A DNA stretch of 47,828 bases from Bacillota bacterium. Lineage in GTDB: Bacteria > Bacillota > Clostridia > DSM-8532. Positions within the stretch are counted from its first letter, which is position 1. Each line of letters opens with the position of its first letter. The stretch is from NCBI GenBank assembly GCA_022702935.2, contig JAKIML020000078.1, positions 1 to 47,828 on the forward strand, in the 5' to 3' direction. Below are positions 35,189 to 46,964 of the stretch, piece after piece. The notes beneath the pieces are model-generated. The model did not search any database. It saw nothing but the letters and a program-made list of their open reading frames with translations, and was not told where the DNA came from. Position numbers and translations under genes: made by a program.

Positions 35189-35245
35189 ATGAGGGGCGAT
35201 ATCAATTTATAACATAAACCACTTAAGATGGACAAAGGAGAACAC

Positions 35246-36601
35246 ATGGTAAGGAAAGATGAAATCCTTGATTTGGAGATAACCGGCATGACCCATGAGG
35301 GCATGGGAGTAGGAAAGAAGGACGGCTTTGCCATCTTTGTGCAAGGGGCTGTGGACGGTGAAAAAGTCGGCGTAAAGATTATCAAGGTGCTTAAAAGCTA
35401 TGCCGTCGCGCGCATAGAGGCCTTTATCGAGAAAAGTTCTCATCGGCAGGAGCCCTTCTGCCCTGTTTACAAGCGGTGCGGCGGCTGCAGCCTCCAGCAT
35501 ATGACCTACGCTAAGACCCTGGCCTTCAAGCGCCAGGTGGTGGTGGATAATCTCGCCCGAATTGGCAGTCTTTCCGATGTAAGGGTTCATGATACCCTGG
35601 GCATGGCAGAGCCCATAAACTATCGCAATAAGGCCCAATACCCTGTGGGCATGGGCAAGAGCGGCCCTGTGGCAGGCTTTTTTGCCAGACGGAGCCATGA
35701 GATTGTTGAAGCCCCAAGCTGTGCTATTCAGCATCCCTTAAGCGACAAGGCCAAGGATATTGTATTGGGTTATATAAAGGCCTTGAACATCCCTGTATAT
35801 AACGAGACCACGGGTCATGGCATTATCCGCCATGTGGTCACTAAGGTGGGCTTTAACACGGGTGAAGTCATGATCATCATTGTGGCCACAAAGCCCGAGC
35901 TCCCCAAGGCCAACAAGCTGATTTACCGCTTAAAGAGGGATATCCCCGGCCTTGCCAGTGTGATACTCAATGTCAACCCCAAGCCCGGGAATGTGATACT
36001 GGGGGACAGAAATATCACCTTGTTTGGCAAGGATACCATCCAGGACACCCTGGGTGGACTCGCCTTTGAGATATCACCCCTTTCCTTTTACCAGGTCAAT
36101 CCCGCCCAGACCGAGGTTTTATACCAGAAGGCCGTGGATTATGCACATCTCCAAGGCAATGAGACGGTCTTTGACCTCTATTGCGGTATCGGAACCATCG
36201 GCCTTTTTGCTGCATCCAGGGCCAAAAAGGTCATTGGTGTTGAGGTAGTGCCCGAAGCGGTGGAGGCCGCCAAAAGCAACGCAAAGCACAACGGGATTGA
36301 AAATGCGGAGTTCTATGCAGGGCTGGCTGAGGAAGTAGTCCCAGAACTCTACGAGAAAGGTATTAAGGCTGATGTGGTCTTTGTGGACCCACCCCGCAAG
36401 GGCTGTGACGAAAACCTGCTTAAAACCCTGGTGGACATGGCCCCCAGCCGCATCGTCTATGTCTCCTGCAACCCCTCCACCCTGGCCCGGGATCTCAAGT
36501 TCCTGACCGGCTCCGGCTTCCAGGTCGAAGAAGTCCAGCCCGTGGATATGTTCCCCTGGAGCGAGCATGTGGAGACGGTAGTATCGATGTCAAGGCTGTA
36601 A
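35246..36601 (+). CDS. rlmD: 23S rRNA (uracil-5-)-methyltransferase RlmD/RumA-like
   Basis: Class I methyltransferase that makes m5U in 23S rRNA (451 aa). An N-terminal TRAM domain (about 5-60) binds RNA. The Fe-S motif CPVYKRCGGCSLQH is present. The SAM motif is DLYCGIGTIG and the nucleophile region VDPPRKGCD. The C-terminus ends HVETVVSMSRL. ATG at 35246 has AAAGGAG 5 nt upstream. This gene marks the left edge of the accessory island. Two displaced, unrelated copies of an rlmD-like 3' end occur further right (41.8 and 43.3 kb). Confidence 0.93.
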   Translation: MVRKDEILDLEITGMTHEGMGVGKKDGFAIFVQGAVDGEKVGVKIIKVLKSYAVARIEAFIEKSSHRQEPFCPVYKRCGGCSLQHMTYAKTLAFKRQVVVDNLARIGSLSDVRVHDTLGMAEPINYRNKAQYPVGMGKSGPVAGFFARRSHEIVEAPSCAIQHPLSDKAKDIVLGYIKALNIPVYNETTGHGIIRHVVTKVGFNTGEVMIIIVATKPELPKANKLIYRLKRDIPGLASVILNVNPKPGNVILGDRNITLFGKDTIQDTLGGLAFEISPLSFYQVNPAQTEVLYQKAVDYAHLQGNETVFDLYCGIGTIGLFAASRAKKVIGVEVVPEAVEAAKSNAKHNGIENAEFYAGLAEEVVPELYEKGIKADVVFVDPPRKGCDENLLKTLVDMAPSRIVYVSCNPSTLARDLKFLTGSGFQVEEVQPVDMFPWSEHVETVVSMSRL

Positions 36602-36808
36602 GCCTTTATTTTACTAGGTTTCCGGAAGCACATCCAAGTTGTCTACTCAACCTAAAGGTCCAAAATAAGTACATGGAAACAAATCGACGAGGTATTTCTG
36701 GGGTAAAATTTGAGCTTAAAAATTGGTAGGGTTGAGTTGACAGAATAGATAACGGGCATTTTTGATAGGGGTTGAGGAGACAGGATGGATGTAAATTTTA
36801 TCAAATAC
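36602..36808. other. Island boundary region without a gene
   Basis: AT-rich DNA begins about 50 bp after rlmD. It contains two related motifs, TGACAGAATAGAT at 36738-36750 and AGACAGGATGGAT at 36778-36790, resembling the iterated repeats at 43.5 kb. No gene or terminator is evident here. Confidence 0.5.
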
Positions 36809-37130: not shown

Positions 37131-37158
37131 TTAACTATAATCCTGTTTATGATATAAT
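37131..37158 (+). promoter_or_regulatory. Putative promoter of the endonuclease gene
   Basis: TTAACT at 37131-37136, a 16-bp spacer and TATAAT at 37153-37158, about 50 bp before the ATG at 37210. The -35 is weak. Confidence 0.4.
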
Positions 37159-37209
37159 AAGATATCAAAAGATAAAATGATTGTGTATTTATTAGGGGAG
37201 GTAAGTTTT

Positions 37210-38475
37210 ATGATACGAATAATTTCTTCACCAAGACAGCCACTTTTTGAAGAACTTCAAAAGGCTTCCCTAAAACATAAGGGTGGTCGTGTGAGGATAG
37301 CTGTCGCATGGGCAAGGGAGGAAGGTGCGCGCTGGCTAATAGATGCCCTTAATGAAAATATTTCCAATGTGGAAATGGTTGTAGGTATAAATGAAAAAAA
37401 TACGACAGTGGAAGCGTTACTACAACTATTTGAGAAAGTAAAATCTCTTTCTGTGTTTTTCAAGCATAATCGCCAGACATTTCACCCTAAAATATATTGG
37501 TTTTCAGGCGGCACAGATCAACCAAATACAGCAACTGTTATTGTTGGTTCTTCAAATTTGACTAGGGGAGGCCTTTTTATTAATTTTGAAACCTCTTTGA
37601 TTGTGGAGGTTAATATGGATACTTTAACTGAGGAGGATAAAGCTTTTCTGGAATCTGCAGAGATAATTTGGAGTGAATTTGTTACCTCGGATTACTCATA
37701 TCCAGTTACATCAATAGATAAAATTCAAGAATTATATGAAGCTGGGTACATTGTTACAGAAAAAATACTACGTAAGAAAAGGAGAAAAGAAACACGTACG
37801 GAGCGACCATTAAAGGGCCTTCCAACAGCTCCACCTCCATTAATTAAGGAAGTACCTGGCACGGCCATTGCTATTCCTTTTGAACTCAGTGGTGAACAAG
37901 ACTTAGAACAAGATGTAGATTTAGTAGAACCTTTGACTGAAGAAGATGGTGATCCAATAGGAACCACACCATTATCAGATAGATTTTATGTAAGAACACT
38001 GACACGTAATGATATTGCAAAACTACATAATATTACCCCCGGAACATTCGAACCAGACTTAGGACAAATTGCCCGTAATCAGTATCCAGCATTTTGGGGT
38101 TGGCCTACAAACTATGTAGAAGTAACACGTAATTTGACACGGAAGGAGTGGAAAGTGGAAGCAAGACTTTTTTCATCTTGTACCCCTGATGATGGAATAC
38201 CAGTGATATTAACACTATGGTTTCGTGAAGCACGTCCTGGCCATCCTGCAGAACACAGAATAGGACTTGGACCAATAGGAGATGTACGTGCAGCTACTCC
38301 GCTGAACTTTGATGAAAATTCTCTGTTTGTGGTTGAACTTGCCTCTGAAGGTGTGTCTTATAAGTATATTATAAGATTTATTACTAAAGATGACGCTATA
38401 TACAACGATTATGCCACTTATTTAACAGAAAAGCGCCCAAACCATAGATACGGGTATGGTCCTCGAGGAGTATAG
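37210..38475 (+). CDS. PLD-family restriction endonuclease (NgoFVII/BfiI-like)
   Basis: Protein of 421 aa. The N-terminal third has a phospholipase-D-type nuclease site: H92-x-K94 in FHPKIYW followed by Asn116 in VGSSNLTRGG. Only one such site is present, as in the metal-independent enzyme BfiI, which dimerises to form a single active centre. A charged, proline-rich linker (about 215-265) joins a C-terminal domain (about 270-410) beginning DRFYVRTLTRND, which is likely to bind DNA (B3-like in BfiI). ATG at 37210 follows GGGGAGG. It faces two DNA methyltransferase genes across a shared terminator. The recognition site is unknown. Confidence 0.8.
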   Translation: MIRIISSPRQPLFEELQKASLKHKGGRVRIAVAWAREEGARWLIDALNENISNVEMVVGINEKNTTVEALLQLFEKVKSLSVFFKHNRQTFHPKIYWFSGGTDQPNTATVIVGSSNLTRGGLFINFETSLIVEVNMDTLTEEDKAFLESAEIIWSEFVTSDYSYPVTSIDKIQELYEAGYIVTEKILRKKRRKETRTERPLKGLPTAPPPLIKEVPGTAIAIPFELSGEQDLEQDVDLVEPLTEEDGDPIGTTPLSDRFYVRTLTRNDIAKLHNITPGTFEPDLGQIARNQYPAFWGWPTNYVEVTRNLTRKEWKVEARLFSSCTPDDGIPVILTLWFREARPGHPAEHRIGLGPIGDVRAATPLNFDENSLFVVELASEGVSYKYIIRFITKDDAIYNDYATYLTEKRPNHRYGYGPRGV

Positions 38476-38499
38476 GGTTTAATCTTTTATTTATTTTAT

Positions 38500-38554
38500 A
38501 GCAAGACCTAAGTATTTTTTCCATATGAGGTAAGATAAAAGCTTAGGTCTTGCT
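38500..38554. terminator. Bidirectional terminator between endonuclease and methyltransferase genes
   Basis: A perfect 13-bp inverted repeat, AGCAAGACCTAAG at 38500-38512 and CTTAGGTCTTGCT at 38542-38554, with a 29-nt loop and AT-rich flanks on both sides, between convergent genes. Confidence 0.75.
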
Positions 38555-38586
38555 TTACATAATAAAAAATGAATTAAGTTATTGCT

Positions 38587-40107
38587 TTACTTGTAGAGCA
38601 ATATTAGTGATTCCTTTGCAATACCATTTTTATGATGAAGCCCATACCGTTGATATGTTTGCAACGGTATGATTTCTTTTATACGCCAACCACATCCTTC
38701 AGCTAATTGAGCGAGTAAATAAGGAGTATCAATATCAAATCGCTTTCCACCTAAAACAGTGTGGTTGTGTCCAACTACTAGGGCGAATGGTGCATTTGGT
38801 GTAAGAACGTTATATACATTTCTAAACATTTTAAGCATATCAGACAGATATCGGTATAATAACATAGGAACTAGTCTCCTCCTGAATCCATCTTCGGGAG
38901 AGAGGGAGTCATATAATTCAAGGCAGAGATCATGTAAATTGTGAGGTATATTATTTGAATTATTAATCATAATATCTTGTAAGAAGCTCTTGGTAGTTCC
39001 ACGTATTTCACGACTCCCAGTTAATGAAGCCTCAAGATTTAATATTTCACTAGGCTTGCATAAGTCTAACCACACTAAACTTAATCTTTGTGTATCTATA
39101 TATGGAAGGGCTGTAGCGTAAGGAGGACTAGTAATCGCACCATTATATAATGTGTCAGTATTGTTCTCAGGACTGTACGAGTCACTTCTTGAATCCATAA
39201 TGTACGCTCTTCCAAGCCTAGGTTGAACCCCTATCAATTTTTGACAAAGCCTAAGGTTATTTATAAATGCATTAAAATTTGTTTTGAAAGCTTCGATGAA
39301 CGGAATACTCGGCATAGGGCTTTTCCTACGACGTATCCGCAAATCGGCAGGTTCCTGCAAAGAATAGTCTCTCAGAAGGTTACTTACTAAAATAAAGAAA
39401 ATAGGTCTAATATTTTCATCTTGTTGCTTAATTAACAAATATAAAGTTTCTATATCAAATAAAATCGATTTATCAAACCATTTTTGCAAGTATTTTAGCC
39501 TTTCATCTGGCAGTTCAGACAATTTAAATTCTCTGCGAGTAGTAGAAAAGCCATCTATTATTTGTCTCCCAACTTGCTCTACATTATCAGCAGGAACTGA
39601 AAGAGCAGTTAATTTTGCATTGGATATATATACTGCTAGTGGGTTTATATCAAATCCAACAGAGTGTATTCCCATTTGTGTACTTTCTACTAGTGAAGTT
39701 CCACTGCCACAAAAGGGATCGAGGATTCGTTGGCCTTCAGCAATGCCAAGTATATTAAGCAAACTTTTGGCAATTTGAGGATTAAACTTACCTTTGTACT
39801 CATGTAATCCATGAACGGAATATCTAGTTGATTGTCGTTTGTTTGTTATTATATTCCCATTATGGCAACTACTTTCCAAATAGTATTGAAGAGTATAAAC
39901 AATTTCATCATTTATTTTTGCATGTGAAAAGTATGTGAGTCTTTTGAATAAGTTTATTACAAACGAACTGGATGTTGATATGTGACTACCCATATCTGTG
40001 AAACTATTTATATTTAGGACAGCTTGTATTTCCCGAAACGCCAGTTCCTTTTCATATGGTAAATATTTATAGTCATGCCAATAAAACTCTGAGTAATTAG
40101 AGTTCAT
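38587..40107 (-). CDS. DNA methyltransferase (TSPPY type, first of pair)
   Basis: SAM-dependent DNA methyltransferase (506 aa). SAM motif I is DPFCGSGT at residues 130-137 and catalytic motif IV is TSPPY at 326-330. An upstream HEYKGKFNPQ segment (102-111) fits motif X. The SPPY motif is usual for N4-cytosine enzymes, although adenine methylation cannot be excluded. The roughly 190 residues between motifs I and IV probably hold target recognition. The ATG has AAAGGAAGG upstream and lies 19 bp after the second methyltransferase gene. It should protect one strand of the endonuclease target. Confidence 0.88.
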   Translation of the reverse strand: MNSNYSEFYWHDYKYLPYEKELAFREIQAVLNINSFTDMGSHISTSSSFVINLFKRLTYFSHAKINDEIVYTLQYYLESSCHNGNIITNKRQSTRYSVHGLHEYKGKFNPQIAKSLLNILGIAEGQRILDPFCGSGTSLVESTQMGIHSVGFDINPLAVYISNAKLTALSVPADNVEQVGRQIIDGFSTTRREFKLSELPDERLKYLQKWFDKSILFDIETLYLLIKQQDENIRPIFFILVSNLLRDYSLQEPADLRIRRRKSPMPSIPFIEAFKTNFNAFINNLRLCQKLIGVQPRLGRAYIMDSRSDSYSPENNTDTLYNGAITSPPYATALPYIDTQRLSLVWLDLCKPSEILNLEASLTGSREIRGTTKSFLQDIMINNSNNIPHNLHDLCLELYDSLSPEDGFRRRLVPMLLYRYLSDMLKMFRNVYNVLTPNAPFALVVGHNHTVLGGKRFDIDTPYLLAQLAEGCGWRIKEIIPLQTYQRYGLHHKNGIAKESLILLYK

Positions 40108-40126
40108 TTAAATTACCTTCCTTTAG

Positions 40127-41263
40127 TTACTTATTATGTAGAACCAAAATTGTTTCTTCCTTTATTTTGGCATATGAAAGATTAAAGGATTTCCTATTTG
40201 ATGGAATTTTCCTCGTTATTTTTATTACTACATCCATTTTGCATTTCATCGCCAACTCTTCCAATATTGAGGCGTTATCTATATATTGCCCATGTATAAT
40301 TGAACGTCCTATTACAATACAAATAAAGCCGTTCTTTATAACTATTTTCCTCATTAAACTGAGAAATACTTCCATTTGATTTTTAAAATCATCTACAGTT
40401 TGATGATTCTTCTTAAAGTAATGTGCTCTTGCACCAATTTCATGTTCTTTTACATTAATAGGATCATATCCTAACCACCACATTCTATATTTATGGTAAA
40501 GCCAGTACTCATAAGCGTTGGGATATGGGGGTGAGGTAATTACTAAACCAATACGCTGGTCAAGGTCACTATTTGTAATAGTAAGAACATCTTTTTGTAA
40601 AACTGTAACTGGAGCTAAATAACGTGATGGATTTTCTGATTTAACTTTTGTAATGTGTTTGCATGCTGATAAAAACAAATTAAACACATCTTTACTCTCA
40701 ATATTTTTTTCAATTGCTGCATACCGTGTATCACTTTCTTGATTTGATACTCTAACAATAATACTAGAGAAAGCTAATTGTAATGCTTCCCGTATCAAGT
40801 TATCATTGACACTCCTTATTTCATGTAGTAATGAAGCAAGAGCATGCTGAATGTCTACTTTGAACCAATGATTTAGGTTAGGTATTTCAGGTATTACGTA
40901 ATTCCTTGATGTCATCGCTCTCTGTACACACTTTTCTGCACTTTCTTGGAACATTGGTGGAAATGGCTGAGTTTTTACTCGACTAATCAAACATGCAATT
41001 GGATTAAGGTCTATACCAACTGAAGGGATGCCTAAAGATTGAGCTTCAGTTAATGTTGTACCACTACCACAAAAAGGATCTAAAATGCTTGTACCACTAG
41101 GAACTTTAATTTCCTTAATTAATGTTCTTGGGATTTGTGGTATGAATTTTGCAGGATAAGGGTGTATAGAATTTAAATCATCAGCGGTTTTAATGTCACT
41201 AAAGTTCCAGTCTATTGAAGCAAGCTTTTCCTTGATGGATATTATATTGTTGTCAAAATGCAT
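40127..41263 (-). CDS. DNA methyltransferase (TSPPY type, second of pair)
   Basis: Paralogous DNA methyltransferase (378 aa). HPYPAKFIPQ (34-43) is followed by motif I DPFCGSGT (62-69) and motif IV TSPPY (243-247). It has the same motif order as its neighbour but little similarity outside the motifs, so the two are old relatives rather than a recent duplicate. ATG at 41263 follows AGGTGAG; GTG at 41272 is the alternative. Two distinct modification enzymes beside one endonuclease suggest an asymmetric target whose strands are methylated separately, as known for BfiI. Confidence 0.88.
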   Translation of the reverse strand: MHFDNNIISIKEKLASIDWNFSDIKTADDLNSIHPYPAKFIPQIPRTLIKEIKVPSGTSILDPFCGSGTTLTEAQSLGIPSVGIDLNPIACLISRVKTQPFPPMFQESAEKCVQRAMTSRNYVIPEIPNLNHWFKVDIQHALASLLHEIRSVNDNLIREALQLAFSSIIVRVSNQESDTRYAAIEKNIESKDVFNLFLSACKHITKVKSENPSRYLAPVTVLQKDVLTITNSDLDQRIGLVITSPPYPNAYEYWLYHKYRMWWLGYDPINVKEHEIGARAHYFKKNHQTVDDFKNQMEVFLSLMRKIVIKNGFICIVIGRSIIHGQYIDNASILEELAMKCKMDVVIKITRKIPSNRKSFNLSYAKIKEETILVLHNK

Positions 41264-41302
41264 AATTCTCACCTATGTCTTTCTTGGATTTTTTATAAAT
41301 AG

Positions 41303-41524
41303 TCATTCCCTGTCCTTTTTGACAGAATATGCGTTTGTGCTGTTTTCAGCGACATGTTCTATTCTATATGGTGGGGATTGTAAGTTTGCTTCAACAAAAC
41401 TTTCTGCAGTTTCTAAAAACCAATCCTTAAGTGTAGTTTGTTTTTTCTCTAATGCTAAATATAAGTTTCTTTTTAAAATAGGATCGATTTTTATAACAAC
41501 CCTACCTGATTTTCCTCGTGCCAT
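41303..41524 (-). CDS. Ribbon-helix-helix regulator of the methyltransferase operon
   Basis: Small protein (73 aa). The segment GRVVIKIDPILKRNLYLALE then TLKDWFLETAESFV gives strand-helix-helix, the Arc/CopG ribbon-helix-helix pattern. AAAAGGAGG precedes the ATG. It lies 39 bp upstream of the second methyltransferase gene, so it heads the operon. The palindrome over its promoter suggests autoregulation, the job done by C proteins in other restriction-modification systems. This function is inferred. Confidence 0.65.
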   Translation of the reverse strand: MARGKSGRVVIKIDPILKRNLYLALEKKQTTLKDWFLETAESFVEANLQSPPYRIEHVAENSTNAYSVKKDRE

Positions 41525-41542
41525 ACTTGACCTCCTTTTCTA

Positions 41543-41601
41543 TAAGTAACATAAGTAATATATGTTACTTAGATGATATTATATATGCTAAACTTTGTCA
41601 A
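41543..41601 (-). promoter_or_regulatory. Promoter and palindromic operator of the RHH-methyltransferase operon
   Basis: On the minus strand, TTGACA (41601-41596), a 17-bp spacer and TATCAT (41578-41573). Just downstream is a perfect 10-bp inverted repeat, TAAGTAACAT (41543-41552) and ATGTTACTTA (41562-41571), 9 bp apart, with an extra AAGTAAT half-site inside. It covers the expected transcription start, fitting a repressor site. Confidence 0.7.
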
Positions 41602-41950: not shown

Positions 41951-42880
41951 GTGGATTCAAAAATCTGGTATATCCCGGTAAAGAATGACCGTTTAGAAAA
42001 GAAAGTCGGAATTTACTGCAGGGTCAGTACAAACGAAAGAGAACAGCTTTATAGCCTTGCAGCACAGATTTCCGCTTTGACAAGAGCGGTTGCGAATGTC
42101 AGTCAGTGGAGACTGGCAGATGTTTTTATCGATATCGCTTCAGCGAAGGGAGAAGTTCCACGTAGAGAATTTGAACGATTGATTAAAGAATGCGAAGCTC
42201 ACAACATCTCCGTCGTTCTGACAAAAAGCATCAGTAGATTTGGCCGAGATACTGTAGAGACCTTATCAGCACTCAATAGGCTGAAAGCAGCAGGCGTCAG
42301 AATCATATTTGAAGAAGAAAATCTGGATACCGATGAAGTTGACAGCAATCTTATGATTTCGGTGATGGAATCCTTCGCTCAGGCCGAAAATGAGAGCCGA
42401 AGCGAAAACATCCGCATGGGACTTGCTATGAGAGCGGCAAACGGTACCTCTGGACTCTACAAACGAAAGCTGTACGGCTACATCAAGAATAAAGATGGTG
42501 AGCTTGTAATTGACAATGAACAGGCTAAGGTTGTGCGAGATATTTTTAGATGGTATCTGGATGGTGCCAGTGTGCTTGGTATCATAAAGAAATTATCAGA
42601 CGCAGGCATTCCTTCCCCTACCGGTAAAGAAACATGGAGCAAACGCTCTATAGAGAAGATGCTTAAAAATGAGAAGTACACAGGTACGGTTACACTTTTG
42701 GATTCTGCTACACAAAAATATGAATTTCAGATGAAAGAATGTCATCCGCCGATTATAACGGAGAGCGAGTTCAGGGCGGTTCAGGACGAAAAGAAAAAGC
42801 GAAGCAATATCGTCACGGATGGCGACGGTAAGCGTCGCAGTAGTCAGAAATATAGTTCGAAAAAGAAACAGGAATATTAG
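41951..42880 (+). CDS. Serine recombinase (short form)
   Basis: Site-specific recombinase (309 aa). The resolvase domain (about 18-165) has the catalytic Ser26 in YCRVST and the motif TKSISRFGRDT. A recombinase DNA-binding domain (about 180-285) follows (LYGYIKNKDGELVIDNEQAK and onward). The zinc ribbon and coiled coil of full large serine recombinases (450-550 aa) are missing; the protein ends in a basic tail (KRRSSQKYSSKKKQ). The GTG start follows AGGAGGTGAG. It sits between two rlmD-like att scars (41.8 and 43.3 kb), so it may be the integrase of a small element. Confidence 0.85.
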   Translation: MDSKIWYIPVKNDRLEKKVGIYCRVSTNEREQLYSLAAQISALTRAVANVSQWRLADVFIDIASAKGEVPRREFERLIKECEAHNISVVLTKSISRFGRDTVETLSALNRLKAAGVRIIFEEENLDTDEVDSNLMISVMESFAQAENESRSENIRMGLAMRAANGTSGLYKRKLYGYIKNKDGELVIDNEQAKVVRDIFRWYLDGASVLGIIKKLSDAGIPSPTGKETWSKRSIEKMLKNEKYTGTVTLLDSATQKYEFQMKECHPPIITESEFRAVQDEKKKRSNIVTDGDGKRRSSQKYSSKKKQEY

Positions 42881-43457: not shown

Positions 43458-43536
43458 TGATAGAATAGAATAGATGGCGGTGCTTGCTGACAGAACAGAA
43501 TAGATGTCAGGGGTTAATGACAGAACAGAATAGATG
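43458..43536 (+). repeat. Three 19-bp repeats at a 30-bp period
   Basis: TGACAGAACAGAATAGATG is identical at 43488-43506 and 43518-43536; 43458-43476 differs by two bases. All three start exactly 30 bp apart. Related pairs occur at 36738-36790. Regular spacing near three helical turns suggests cooperative binding, as at transposon ends. Confidence 0.75.
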
Positions 43537-43647: not shown

Positions 43648-44919
43648 ATGGAATATGTTGTTATTGGTATCATTGTTGTTATTGCCGTTGTTCTTGGTGG
43701 TGTATTATGGTGGAAGGGCATGAAAAACAAAAAACTACTTGAAGCAAACGTAATCCTAAAGCAAGAATCAAAATTGAATAGTTCTAAACTAAGTGAAGAT
43801 GATATGAATCGCTTAATGATTCAGCTTGAACAATTGCCGTTAGAAGCCATATCTGATGAAAGAAACCTCATGGAAATTACGGATAGTAAGATTCTAGCTC
43901 GTGTTAACAATCTTGTTCCAGCGTTGTTTCAAGGAGGAAATGCCGCGGCGAACGCTGTTCAAGCCAGTGGCAAAGTGTTGTATCAAGCCGTTATACCAGC
44001 CGGAGCCAAGCTCGCTAAATCTCAAGATATGGCTGGAGCAGTTCGTGGTATTTACCATGGTGCTGAAGGCGTAAGTGGCCATGCTAATCTTGTGGCTGTA
44101 AATAATACTGCGAATGTTGCAGCTAATGCAGCAGCTGCTGCAATGGGTGTTGCATCAATGGTCGTGGGTCAGTATTATATGACACAAATCAACGCTGAGC
44201 TTAGTGAGATTAGTGAAGGTATTACAAAAATTTCAGATTTCCAAGATAATGAATATAAGAGTAAGGTGTTTGCTTTGGTAGCACAAATTCAAAAAGCAGC
44301 AAAATTCCAAGTGAATATTCTGGATAATGATGAACTTAGAATAAGCGAGATTGCTAATCTGAATAACTGGGAGCAAGAATGTATTCAGTTATTAGGACAG
44401 GCTAACCTTACAATAGCAGGTTTTTCAAAGAAAAATGATCTAGATTATGACGAATATGAGAAGGAACTCGGGGAAGCTCAGAATTGGTTCATATATCAAA
44501 AGACTTTGATGGAAGTTATGTCCAAAATAGCAGAGTTGAAACATACATTACATCTTGGAGCGGTGTCCAGAGAACAGTGCGGCGCCTTGCTTCCTATATA
44601 TTCAAAACAGGTGCAGGATGCATTGAATCAATTATGCTCATGGCATCAAGTCCAGGTTGAGAAGTTCAAAATAAATGTAGAGGAGAGTAACAGAAAGCGA
44701 ACGGGATTTGATAGCTTTATTCACACGATTCCGGGTTGGATAAATGAAAAAAATAGATACCGTTCCGTTTCGGAGAACACAGTGAAAAAGATAGTTGATC
44801 AGACCAATAGATATGATATTCCCCAAAAAACAGATATGATAGATCTATTCCAAGAGGATGTTAAGATCATTGCTAAAGAAGGTAAGATATATTACCTTCC
44901 ACAAGAAGCAGCTCAATAA
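43648..44919 (+). CDS. Membrane-anchored protein of unknown function in the island
   Basis: Protein of 423 aa I cannot assign to a family. A membrane helix at about 4-22 begins almost at the start, followed by a basic patch. A Gly/Ala-rich stretch (about 90-185, including NVAANAAAAAMGVASMVVGQYY) could form one or two more membrane or amphipathic helices. The rest (190-400) is helical and charged. AGGAGG precedes the ATG. It is flanked by recombinases and has no apparent partner. Possible roles include phage defence or a toxin-like membrane protein; both are speculation. Confidence 0.6.
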   Translation: MEYVVIGIIVVIAVVLGGVLWWKGMKNKKLLEANVILKQESKLNSSKLSEDDMNRLMIQLEQLPLEAISDERNLMEITDSKILARVNNLVPALFQGGNAAANAVQASGKVLYQAVIPAGAKLAKSQDMAGAVRGIYHGAEGVSGHANLVAVNNTANVAANAAAAAMGVASMVVGQYYMTQINAELSEISEGITKISDFQDNEYKSKVFALVAQIQKAAKFQVNILDNDELRISEIANLNNWEQECIQLLGQANLTIAGFSKKNDLDYDEYEKELGEAQNWFIYQKTLMEVMSKIAELKHTLHLGAVSREQCGALLPIYSKQVQDALNQLCSWHQVQVEKFKINVEESNRKRTGFDSFIHTIPGWINEKNRYRSVSENTVKKIVDQTNRYDIPQKTDMIDLFQEDVKIIAKEGKIYYLPQEAAQ

Positions 44920-44974: not shown

Positions 44975-46546
44975 CTATTCTTCCACATCCACCGTTAAAC
45001 CTGACTTAAATTCCACGGTAAATTTATCCTCATAAACAGTGACTTTTTCAATAAGTCGCCGGATCAGTTGCTCATCATATTTAGTGATAGTGGCGGGATG
45101 CTCATTGAGGAAGGCGCTCATATCAGCTATACGCTTTTTGAGTTCATCCCTGTTTGCGTTTTCAACCATCAAGCTTTGTTTCTGGTCACGCAGGCGGTGA
45201 ATCTCTTCACCAACTTTCTCATAATCAGCATTGGAACTGGCCAGTTTAAGAAGTTCTGTTTGTAGCTCTTCCAGCTTATTATCTATGTCAGCTAAGGTCT
45301 GGTCGTTTTCTTTGGTTAAGACGGTGGCGATGTTATTCCGGAGCGTGGAGAGGAAAGTATCCTTACCGCTCAGCGTATTGTTTATGGCGGTTACCAGCAC
45401 TTCCTCTATGGTGCTTTCTAATACCGTCCGAGCATCGCAGAATAAGCCGGTGTTTTCTAAACGGCTAACGCAGCGCCAGACGATAGATTTCTTTCCGCGA
45501 TTGTTCCAGTGAACTCTTCGGAAAACTTCGCCGCAATTACTGCAGAAAACTATCTGTGCAAGGCAGTGATTGCTGCTGAAGGTTCTTTTCTTTCCATTAG
45601 GGCTGGTATGAACGATGCGACGTCGAATGAGCTCTTCTTGTACCTGCATGAAAATTTCACGCGGGATAATGGGCTCATGGTTGTTTTCTACATAGTATTG
45701 AGGAACAATGCCGTTGTTCTTAACACGTTTCTTTGTTAGAAAGTCAACCGTATAAGTTTTCTGCAAAAGGGCATCCCCAATATATTTCTCATTTCGAAGG
45801 ATATGATTTATATTGCTGGTATGCCATCTTTTATTACCTGCTCCGTTTCGAATACCGTCAGCTTCTAAGCCACGGGCTATTTTCAACATACTGGCACCCT
45901 CGAGGTATTCTCGGTAGATACGTTTCACAACTTCGGCTTCTTCCGGAACAATGACTAGTTTCTTATTCTCATCCTTGGTATAGCCGAGAAACCTAGCACA
46001 GTTTATTTGGATCTCGCCCTGCTGGTAACGGTACTGTAGGCCCAGCTTCACATTCTGGCTCAACGACTGGCTTTCCTGCTGCGCAAGGGATGCCATAATT
46101 GTGAGCATGACCTCGCCCTTGGAATCCATGGTATTTATGTTTTCTTTCTCGAAATAGACCGGTATGTTCTTGTCCTTAAGTTGACGGATATATTTCAAAC
46201 AGTCCAGCGTGTTTCGGGCAAAGCGGCTGATGGACTTTGTAATGATCATATCGATATTACCAGCCATACACTCGTCTATCATGCGGTTGAATTCTTCACG
46301 TTTCTTAGTATTGGTACCGGAGATACCGTCATCTGCAAAAATGCCTGCAAATTCCCAATCGGGGTGATTATTTATGTAGGTCGTATAATGTTCTATCTGT
46401 GTTTCATAGCTGGTAGCCTGCTCGTCACTATCTGTAGAAACTCGACAGTAAGCTGCTACACGGAGCTTTGGCTTTTCTTCACCTTTTTTCTTTCTACCCA
46501 TTAAGTTTCGTGCTGGAATTACGGTTACATTCTTATTAACTTCCAT
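44975..46546 (-). CDS. Large serine recombinase
   Basis: Complete large serine recombinase (523 aa). The catalytic domain (about 28-180) has Ser37 in YCRVST and [11 protein letters not shown]. The recombinase domain (about 195-300) follows. A zinc ribbon starts [10 protein letters not shown] and ends in WRC and a later Cys. A coiled coil spans about 400-470. GGAGG lies upstream of the ATG, inside the previous gene, which it overlaps by 11 bp. It is third in a leftward set of recombinase genes and is likely the catalytic partner. Confidence 0.93.
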
Positions 46547-46964
46547 CCTTTTGTACCTCCATTTCTATCAAACTGTAGACGTATTCGGCCTGCTGAAAAG
46601 GATCATCAAATTGCTGCACGACTTCGTTTATATAGAATTCGGTGGGGAAGACAATCTCTGCTTTTTCTTTTGGTTTACGAATGCGGCCAAGCTTCTCAGC
46701 CCGCCTGGTGCGTTCCTCCTCGGCGGCAGCAAAGGTATCAATATCGATAATCGCAGGATAATACTCATTACCGAGATAACAGGTGTTTCTAAGCATCCTA
46801 CCAATACCAGAATGATAGGATTTAATGCCAGCTTTTTTTGCAGCGTTTACTAACGAATCGCCAGAAAGATAATACTGAAACAGTTTTTTTACTTTCTCAG
46901 CAGCTTCACTATCAATTAAGGCCTTTCCATTTTCAATTCGGTAGCCAAATGGTGTGTGGCTCAT
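46536..46964 (-). CDS. Recombinase-domain protein lacking the catalytic domain
   Basis: Protein of 142 aa covering only the recombinase DNA-binding domain: it begins with the segment after the catalytic domain ([15 protein letters not shown]) and has the [15 protein letters not shown] motif. There is no resolvase catalytic domain or serine motif. It starts right after the stop of the upstream gene (TAAATG) and overlaps the next by 11 bp, so all three are coupled. Such small proteins occur beside multi-recombinase elements in Clostridia and may act as accessory DNA-binding factors. Confidence 0.8.

Follow-up and report, generated by a model that had tools for sequence, protein, structure and literature searches.

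The window, i.e. the whole stretch of 47,828 nucleotides that was analysed, carries four intact open reading frames at positions 37210-41601, which encode a nuclease (R), two DNA methyltransferases (M2 and M1) and a small ribbon-helix-helix-like (RHH-like) protein. R lies on the plus strand and converges with a minus-strand operon read in the order RHH-like gene, M1 and M2, the 3' ends facing each other. The features of the region are the following:

37131..37158, plus strand: candidate R promoter, TTAACT-16-TATAAT (promoter scan)
37210..38475, plus strand: R, PLD-superfamily nuclease of 421 aa (sequence and family matches)
Domains of R, plus strand: PLD, residues ~1-190; linker, ~190-245; C-terminal B3-like domain, ~250-421 (B3-like part by homology)
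Catalytic motif of R, plus strand: H92 at 37483-37485, K94 at 37489-37491, N116 at 37555-37557, E127 at 37588-37590 (R-family alignments)
38485..38569: inverted repeat between the 3' ends of R and M2, 33-nt arms, 76% complementary
38587..40107, minus strand: M2, DNA methyltransferase of 506 aa, with TSPPY
40127..41272, minus strand: M1, DNA methyltransferase of 381 aa from GTG 41272, with TSPPY
41303..41524, minus strand: RHH-like gene, 73 aa, head of the methyltransferase operon (sequence pattern)
41543..41571: candidate operator, perfect inverted repeat TAAGTAACATA-7-TATGTTACTTA (11+7+11) plus a third half-site (repeat search)
41573..41601, minus strand: promoter TTGACA-17-TATCAT (11/12), adjoining the operator on its upstream side; no other promoter-like site of the region ranks higher

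The start of R is the ATG preceded by the ribosome site AGGGGAGG at 37194-37201, a longer open reading frame from 37177 being less likely, and the ATG of the RHH-like gene follows the ribosome site AAGGAGG at 41531-41537. For M1, an alternative start at ATG 41263 (378 aa), with the ribosome site AGGTGAG, was judged better than GTG 41272. The inverted repeat at 38485-38569 may be a two-way terminator. A first-pass annotation, made from the letters of the sequence, had described two TSPPY methyltransferases and a single-motif PLD nuclease, and this description stands, since all three genes are intact and TSPPY is present in both M1 (40523-40537) and M2 (39118-39132). Its term "divergent" for the methyltransferases is correct in the sense that they differ from each other, but not as a statement on orientation, R and the methyltransferases being convergent.

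M1 and M2 match over their full length the PADLOC type II methyltransferase models PDLC03364 (E 3.2e-157) and PDLC03377 (E 3.3e-158), respectively, and in both proteins motif I is of the DPFCGSG type. Plasmid searches with the two proteins led to two alphaproteobacterial loci, L011 on Methylobacterium indicum pVL1_4 and L012 on a Roseibium aggregatum plasmid, in which both methyltransferase genes are followed by a PLD gene in the same direction. The product of the L011 PLD gene is truly orthologous to BfiI (E 3.5e-145 in a phmmer comparison with 2c1l), and the nucleases of L011 and L012 are 70% identical. M1 and M2 of the window share 47-50% identity with their counterparts in L011 and L012, all other M1/M2 pairs found being ~28-37% identical to the window pair, and the window groups with the two BfiI loci in both methyltransferase trees (support 97/99 for M1 and 100/99 for M2), in which these two reference loci alone stand for BfiI, the M1 and M2 of BfiI itself being absent. 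Since the catalytic segments of the window enzymes are highly similar to those of the BfiI loci, as are several segments after TSPPY (~60% or more), the window pair is likely to have a target similar to that of the BfiI-locus pair. BfiI has two methylases, one per strand (PMC4267653), and its recognition site is ACTGGG (PMC4081073). This hexamer occurs 16 times in the window against 15 expected; it is neither over- nor under-represented, which says little. The TSPPY motif is compatible with m4C methylation, and the BfiI methylases were reportedly described as N4-cytosine enzymes by Sapranauskas et al. in 2000. The best reading of the M1 and M2 sequences is that of a BfiI-type m4C pair acting strand by strand.

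Members of the R family were found convergent with M1/M2-type enzymes in nine further loci, in six of which (L004, L005, L009, L025, L026 and L204) M1 and M2 are fused in one polypeptide of ~930-1075 aa, and in three of which (L010, L027 and L200) they are split. L004 (Methylotenera) and L005 (Janthinobacterium) are on genome contigs, L010 is on the Rhizobium anhuiense plasmid pRA_T24_3, and L009, L025, L026, L027, L200 and L204 are on viral contigs, in some of which phage or integrase genes lie close by, L027 and L200 being taken from IMG/VR. The module of fused M1-M2 and PLD nuclease in L009, L025 and L204 is carried by what look like prophages, or by viral contigs. In 9 of 9 loci, across plasmids, prophages and chromosomes, the nearest full-length relatives of R adjoin M1/M2; no close R relatives were found in phages. 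Two other plasmid loci carry PLD genes. A Salipiger plasmid (L023, 3626-8017) has a CopG-type RHH gene, a gene for an 832-aa methyltransferase with two methylase domains and then a PLD nuclease gene, and represents another PLD system preceded by an RHH gene. An Enterococcus gallinarum megaplasmid (L014, 6004-12534) encodes a PLD protein, a 766-aa protein of no known kind and an N-6 DNA methylase, adjoining a plasmid copy of rlmD.

R matches the Pfam models PLDc_2 (28 bits, cut-off 27) and RE_NgoFVII (27 bits, cut-off 23.8), the Pfam search revealed neither an SRA nor a helicase domain in it, and nothing of use came from a search of PDB sequences with R. The protein has a single HxK motif, and H92, K94, N116 and E127 are invariant across every R-family relative aligned, corresponding in the alignment to H105, K107, N125 and E136 of the BfiI ortholog. 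The single-site PLD enzyme with H92-x-K94 and Asn116 that had been proposed from the sequence is thus upheld by the alignments, with E127 to be added to it. In the predicted model, the PLD part of R superposes on BfiI 2c1l with Z 14.8 and rmsd 2.7 over 166 residues; the top structural match of this part is the PLD domain of SauUSI, and 4rct (R.NgoAVII) is among the structural matches both of the PLD part of R and of the R of L009.

As for the C-terminal part, R gave no match to BfiI_DBD (PF18243) at E 0.1, a model that is found in the BfiI orthologs of L011 and L012 with E 2.1e-70 and 7.2e-72, and the similarity of R to the L011 ortholog is limited to 20% identity over 113 residues of the PLD part (E 0.019). 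By profile, the R family is related to BfiI over its whole length (probability 94.6, E 6.5e-8), and so is the R-family C-terminus alone (E 8.5e-5). In the AF2 model of the window R, made with seven sequences, the C-terminal domain was mostly below pLDDT 50; after it had stayed at low confidence, the R of the relative L009, for which a better alignment was available, was folded by AF2 with pLDDT 77. A Foldseek search with the latter model had BfiI 2c1l as its best match (E 5.9e-15), and its C-terminal domain fits 3zi5, the DNA-bound structure of the BfiI B3 domain, with Z 13.0 and rmsd 2.8 over 133 residues. The C-terminal domain of the L009 nuclease can therefore be confidently modelled as B3-like, and the window domain, which matches those of L200, L010 and L027 by sequence (E ~5e-5), would be B3-like by homology. 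The comparison with B3 that the first-pass annotation had called for has thus a positive outcome for the relative, but for the window R it runs through the sequence link. A C-terminal domain unrelated to DNA binding, the result that had been named as speaking against the initial proposal, is unlikely given the fit of the L009 fold to the BfiI B3 domain.

To judge by these sequences, the locus is a BfiI-type methyltransferase pair combined with a different PLD-B3 nuclease, R lying outside the BfiI family. R and M identities run mostly in parallel across locus pairs, and within the R family nucleases and methyltransferases diverge mostly in step. Between the window and the two BfiI loci, R identity is 23-25 points below that of M2, the largest shortfall of all pairs (the next being 17), the 25% R identity behind it coming from a forced global alignment and being near background. 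That R identity trails M identity most precisely against the BfiI loci, of which there are two only, suggests that the nuclease has been exchanged. In the tree of PLD domains, the split of the BfiI orthologs from the rest is firm, and no other placement is, that of the window included; the nuclease and methyltransferase trees do not conflict in topology, and the argument for exchange rests on rates and layout. As to layout, R is convergent in the window and its nine relatives and co-directional with the methyltransferases at the BfiI loci, so that perhaps the BfiI lineage is the side that changed its nuclease. That two non-orthologous PLD-B3 nucleases serve one kind of methyltransferase pair, BfiI being the later arrival and the convergent family the older partner, is a tentative proposal, to which we give slightly less than an even chance. 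Since the nuclease split is compatible with the methyltransferase tree, a faster change of R in one lineage could also be considered, R being then a plain BfiI ortholog that has merely drifted fast in a BfiI isoschizomer. The M1/M2 identity to the BfiI loci, the PLD-B3 architecture common to both and the lack of topological conflict between the trees would agree with this, but the lack of a BfiI_DBD match, the weak similarity to the L011 nuclease, the R shortfall in a family that otherwise diverges in step, and the orientation of R make it quite unlikely. It is very unlikely that R, like R.CglI and R.NgoAVII, depends on an ATPase partner and is inactive alone: it matches the N-terminal PLD model RE_NgoFVII and has R.NgoAVII among its structural matches, but there is no DEAD/Z1 helicase gene among the locus ORFs, none is common to the loci of the relatives, and the CglI and NgoAVII systems have one C5 methyltransferase (PMC4267653) where two TSPPY enzymes are found here. 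A modification-dependent (type IV-like) R, or one otherwise unconnected with an orphan methyltransferase pair beside it, could be thought of from the SauUSI match; the constant association of R relatives with M1/M2 and the lack of SRA and helicase domains render it extremely improbable.

The 73-aa protein is RHH-like in its sequence pattern, with no Pfam (even at E 10), PADLOC, NCBIfam or useful PDB sequence match. The candidate operator is located at the expected transcription start (+1) of its operon; no such perfect repeat turned up in 5000 Markov regions of similar composition, and in the window as a whole perfect 11-nt arms separated by 3-12 nt recur at two further places. Promoter and repeat together have the anatomy of an autorepressed operon, in which the repeat would be the operator. 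No AAGTAACATA-like half-sites were found near the R promoter, so that there is no evidence for RHH control of R, and no comparable inverted repeats were found upstream of the M genes of the relatives. The RHH controller placed at the operon head by the first-pass annotation has therefore gained a candidate operator at its own promoter, but it is part of the methyltransferase operon and shows no sign of controlling R. An alternative is that the small protein serves M1 as a DNA-binding accessory subunit instead of regulating transcription, which would be in keeping with the RHH-like segment that forms the N-terminus of the fused M1-M2 in L009, L025 and L204 and the MerR-like domain that forms the N-terminus of M1 in L010 (Pfam E 6.6e-9) and L027. 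An ungapped alignment of 31 residues joins the window protein to the fused segments of L009 and L025; the scores against the fused segments were reached by 2, 14 and 69 of 2000 shuffles and the profile E is 0.77, and the resemblance is suggestive only. We regard the accessory role as unlikely in view of the perfect inverted repeat where transcription of the protein's own operon would start, of the fact that N-terminal DNA-binding domains of methyltransferases are themselves known to mediate autorepression (PMC3874152), and of the M1 start in L011/L012, where no RHH- or MerR-like domain was seen. The roles of regulator and accessory subunit are compatible and need not exclude each other.

The locus lies downstream of rlmD (35228-36601), at the end of which the GC content drops from ~49-53% to 32-37%. 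In at least six congeners rlmD is within 500 bases of a contig end, and the adjoining site could be repetitive, or could vary within the genus. Serine-recombinase genes or fragments related to Ccr/XisF are present to the right of the locus (41951-42880, plus strand; 44975-46546 and 46536-46964, minus strand), with a 423-aa protein without family match encoded between them (43648-44919). Repeats of the form GGTTGAG..GACAG.AT.GAT are found at 36630-36790, with two exact forward copies after rlmD, and two other contigs of this genome, C97 and C109, carry them as well. Further right, at 43458-43535, there are three repeats resembling TGACAGAACAGAATAGATG; these short repeats may be insertion-element ends on both sides of the island. 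Attachment sites of the island were sought and none was delimited. Of the 390 other genomes in the class sample, none had an R relative at E 1e-20; for M2, a distant relative was found at E 1e-30 in one further genome. The GC drop, the lack of close R and M2 relatives in the class sample, the serine recombinases and the position of rlmD at contig ends indicate that the system was most likely gained by horizontal transfer.

The reading that we favour, and hold to be probable, is that of a complete type IIS-like restriction-modification system with strand-by-strand methylation by M1 and M2, a metal-independent PLD-B3 nuclease, autorepression by the RHH-like protein and an R that was not co-inherited with BfiI, two non-orthologous PLD-B3 nucleases serving this kind of methyltransferase pair. 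M1 and M2 would each modify one strand of one asymmetric site and, as BfiI is accompanied by a pair of this type, the modification would most likely be at N4 of cytosine and the site most likely ACTGGG/CCCAGT or a close relative. BfiI is a dimer with a B3 domain and a single active site (PMC4081073); R, in the same manner, would dimerize through its PLD domains to form one composite, metal-independent active site, with H92, K94, N116 and E127 contributed by each chain, while its C-terminal B3-like domain would find unmodified sites, the cut being made at a short distance. The RHH-like protein would bind the 29-bp inverted repeat at the transcription start and repress its own operon, thus limiting the supply of methyltransferases. 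The BfiI design invoked in the first-pass annotation agrees with the single-motif PLD nuclease, with separate M1 and M2 nearest to those beside BfiI orthologs and with the B3-like C-terminal domain of the nuclease family, and from this anatomy the locus likely operates like BfiI.

The system shares with BfiI/BmrI (ACTGGG 5/4) the two separate methyltransferases (at the 47-50% identity given above to those beside BfiI orthologs), the PLD nuclease with one HxK motif and with N and E at the BfiI spacing, and the B3-like C-terminal domain, supported for the window by its relatives. It differs in its nuclease R, for which BfiI_DBD gave no match, whose PLD part is ~20% identical and whose gene is convergent instead of being the last of the operon, and in the separate RHH-like gene that heads the operon. 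The module of L010, L027 and L200 has a full-length homologous convergent R, the same gene order and split methyltransferases, but the latter are only ~28-37% identical to those of the window, M1 carries a MerR-like domain (L010 and L027) and no separate RHH gene is annotated. The fused module (L004, L005, L009, L025, L026 and L204) has a convergent R of the same family and both methyltransferase halves, with an RHH-like N-terminus in L009, L025 and L204, but M1-M2 is one polypeptide. CglI/NgoAVII (GCCGC) and NgoFVII/AspCNI (GCSGC) have in common with it the N-terminal PLD domain of R and, in CglI/NgoAVII, the C-terminal B3 domain, whereas CglI/NgoAVII depend on an ATPase subunit and have one C5 methyltransferase, the window locus having neither a helicase nor a C5 enzyme.

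The locus holds an intact defence system that cuts DNA and was most likely acquired horizontally, with a nuclease from a barely described branch of the BfiI fold. Detailed knowledge of metal-independent PLD restriction enzymes comes from BfiI and its close kin, and the window locus and its relatives add a second, diverse branch of nucleases with the same kind of methyltransferase partners. They represent a natural experiment on how a restriction enzyme can be replaced while its methyltransferase pair stays fixed. Should both nucleases have one target, their B3 domains would have reached one sequence by separate routes. The branch may also yield new cutters that resist EDTA and have B3 specificity. 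Moreover, the occurrence of the regulator as a free RHH gene, as an RHH-like fusion or as a MerR-like fusion makes a clear case for how the methyltransferases may be controlled in such systems.
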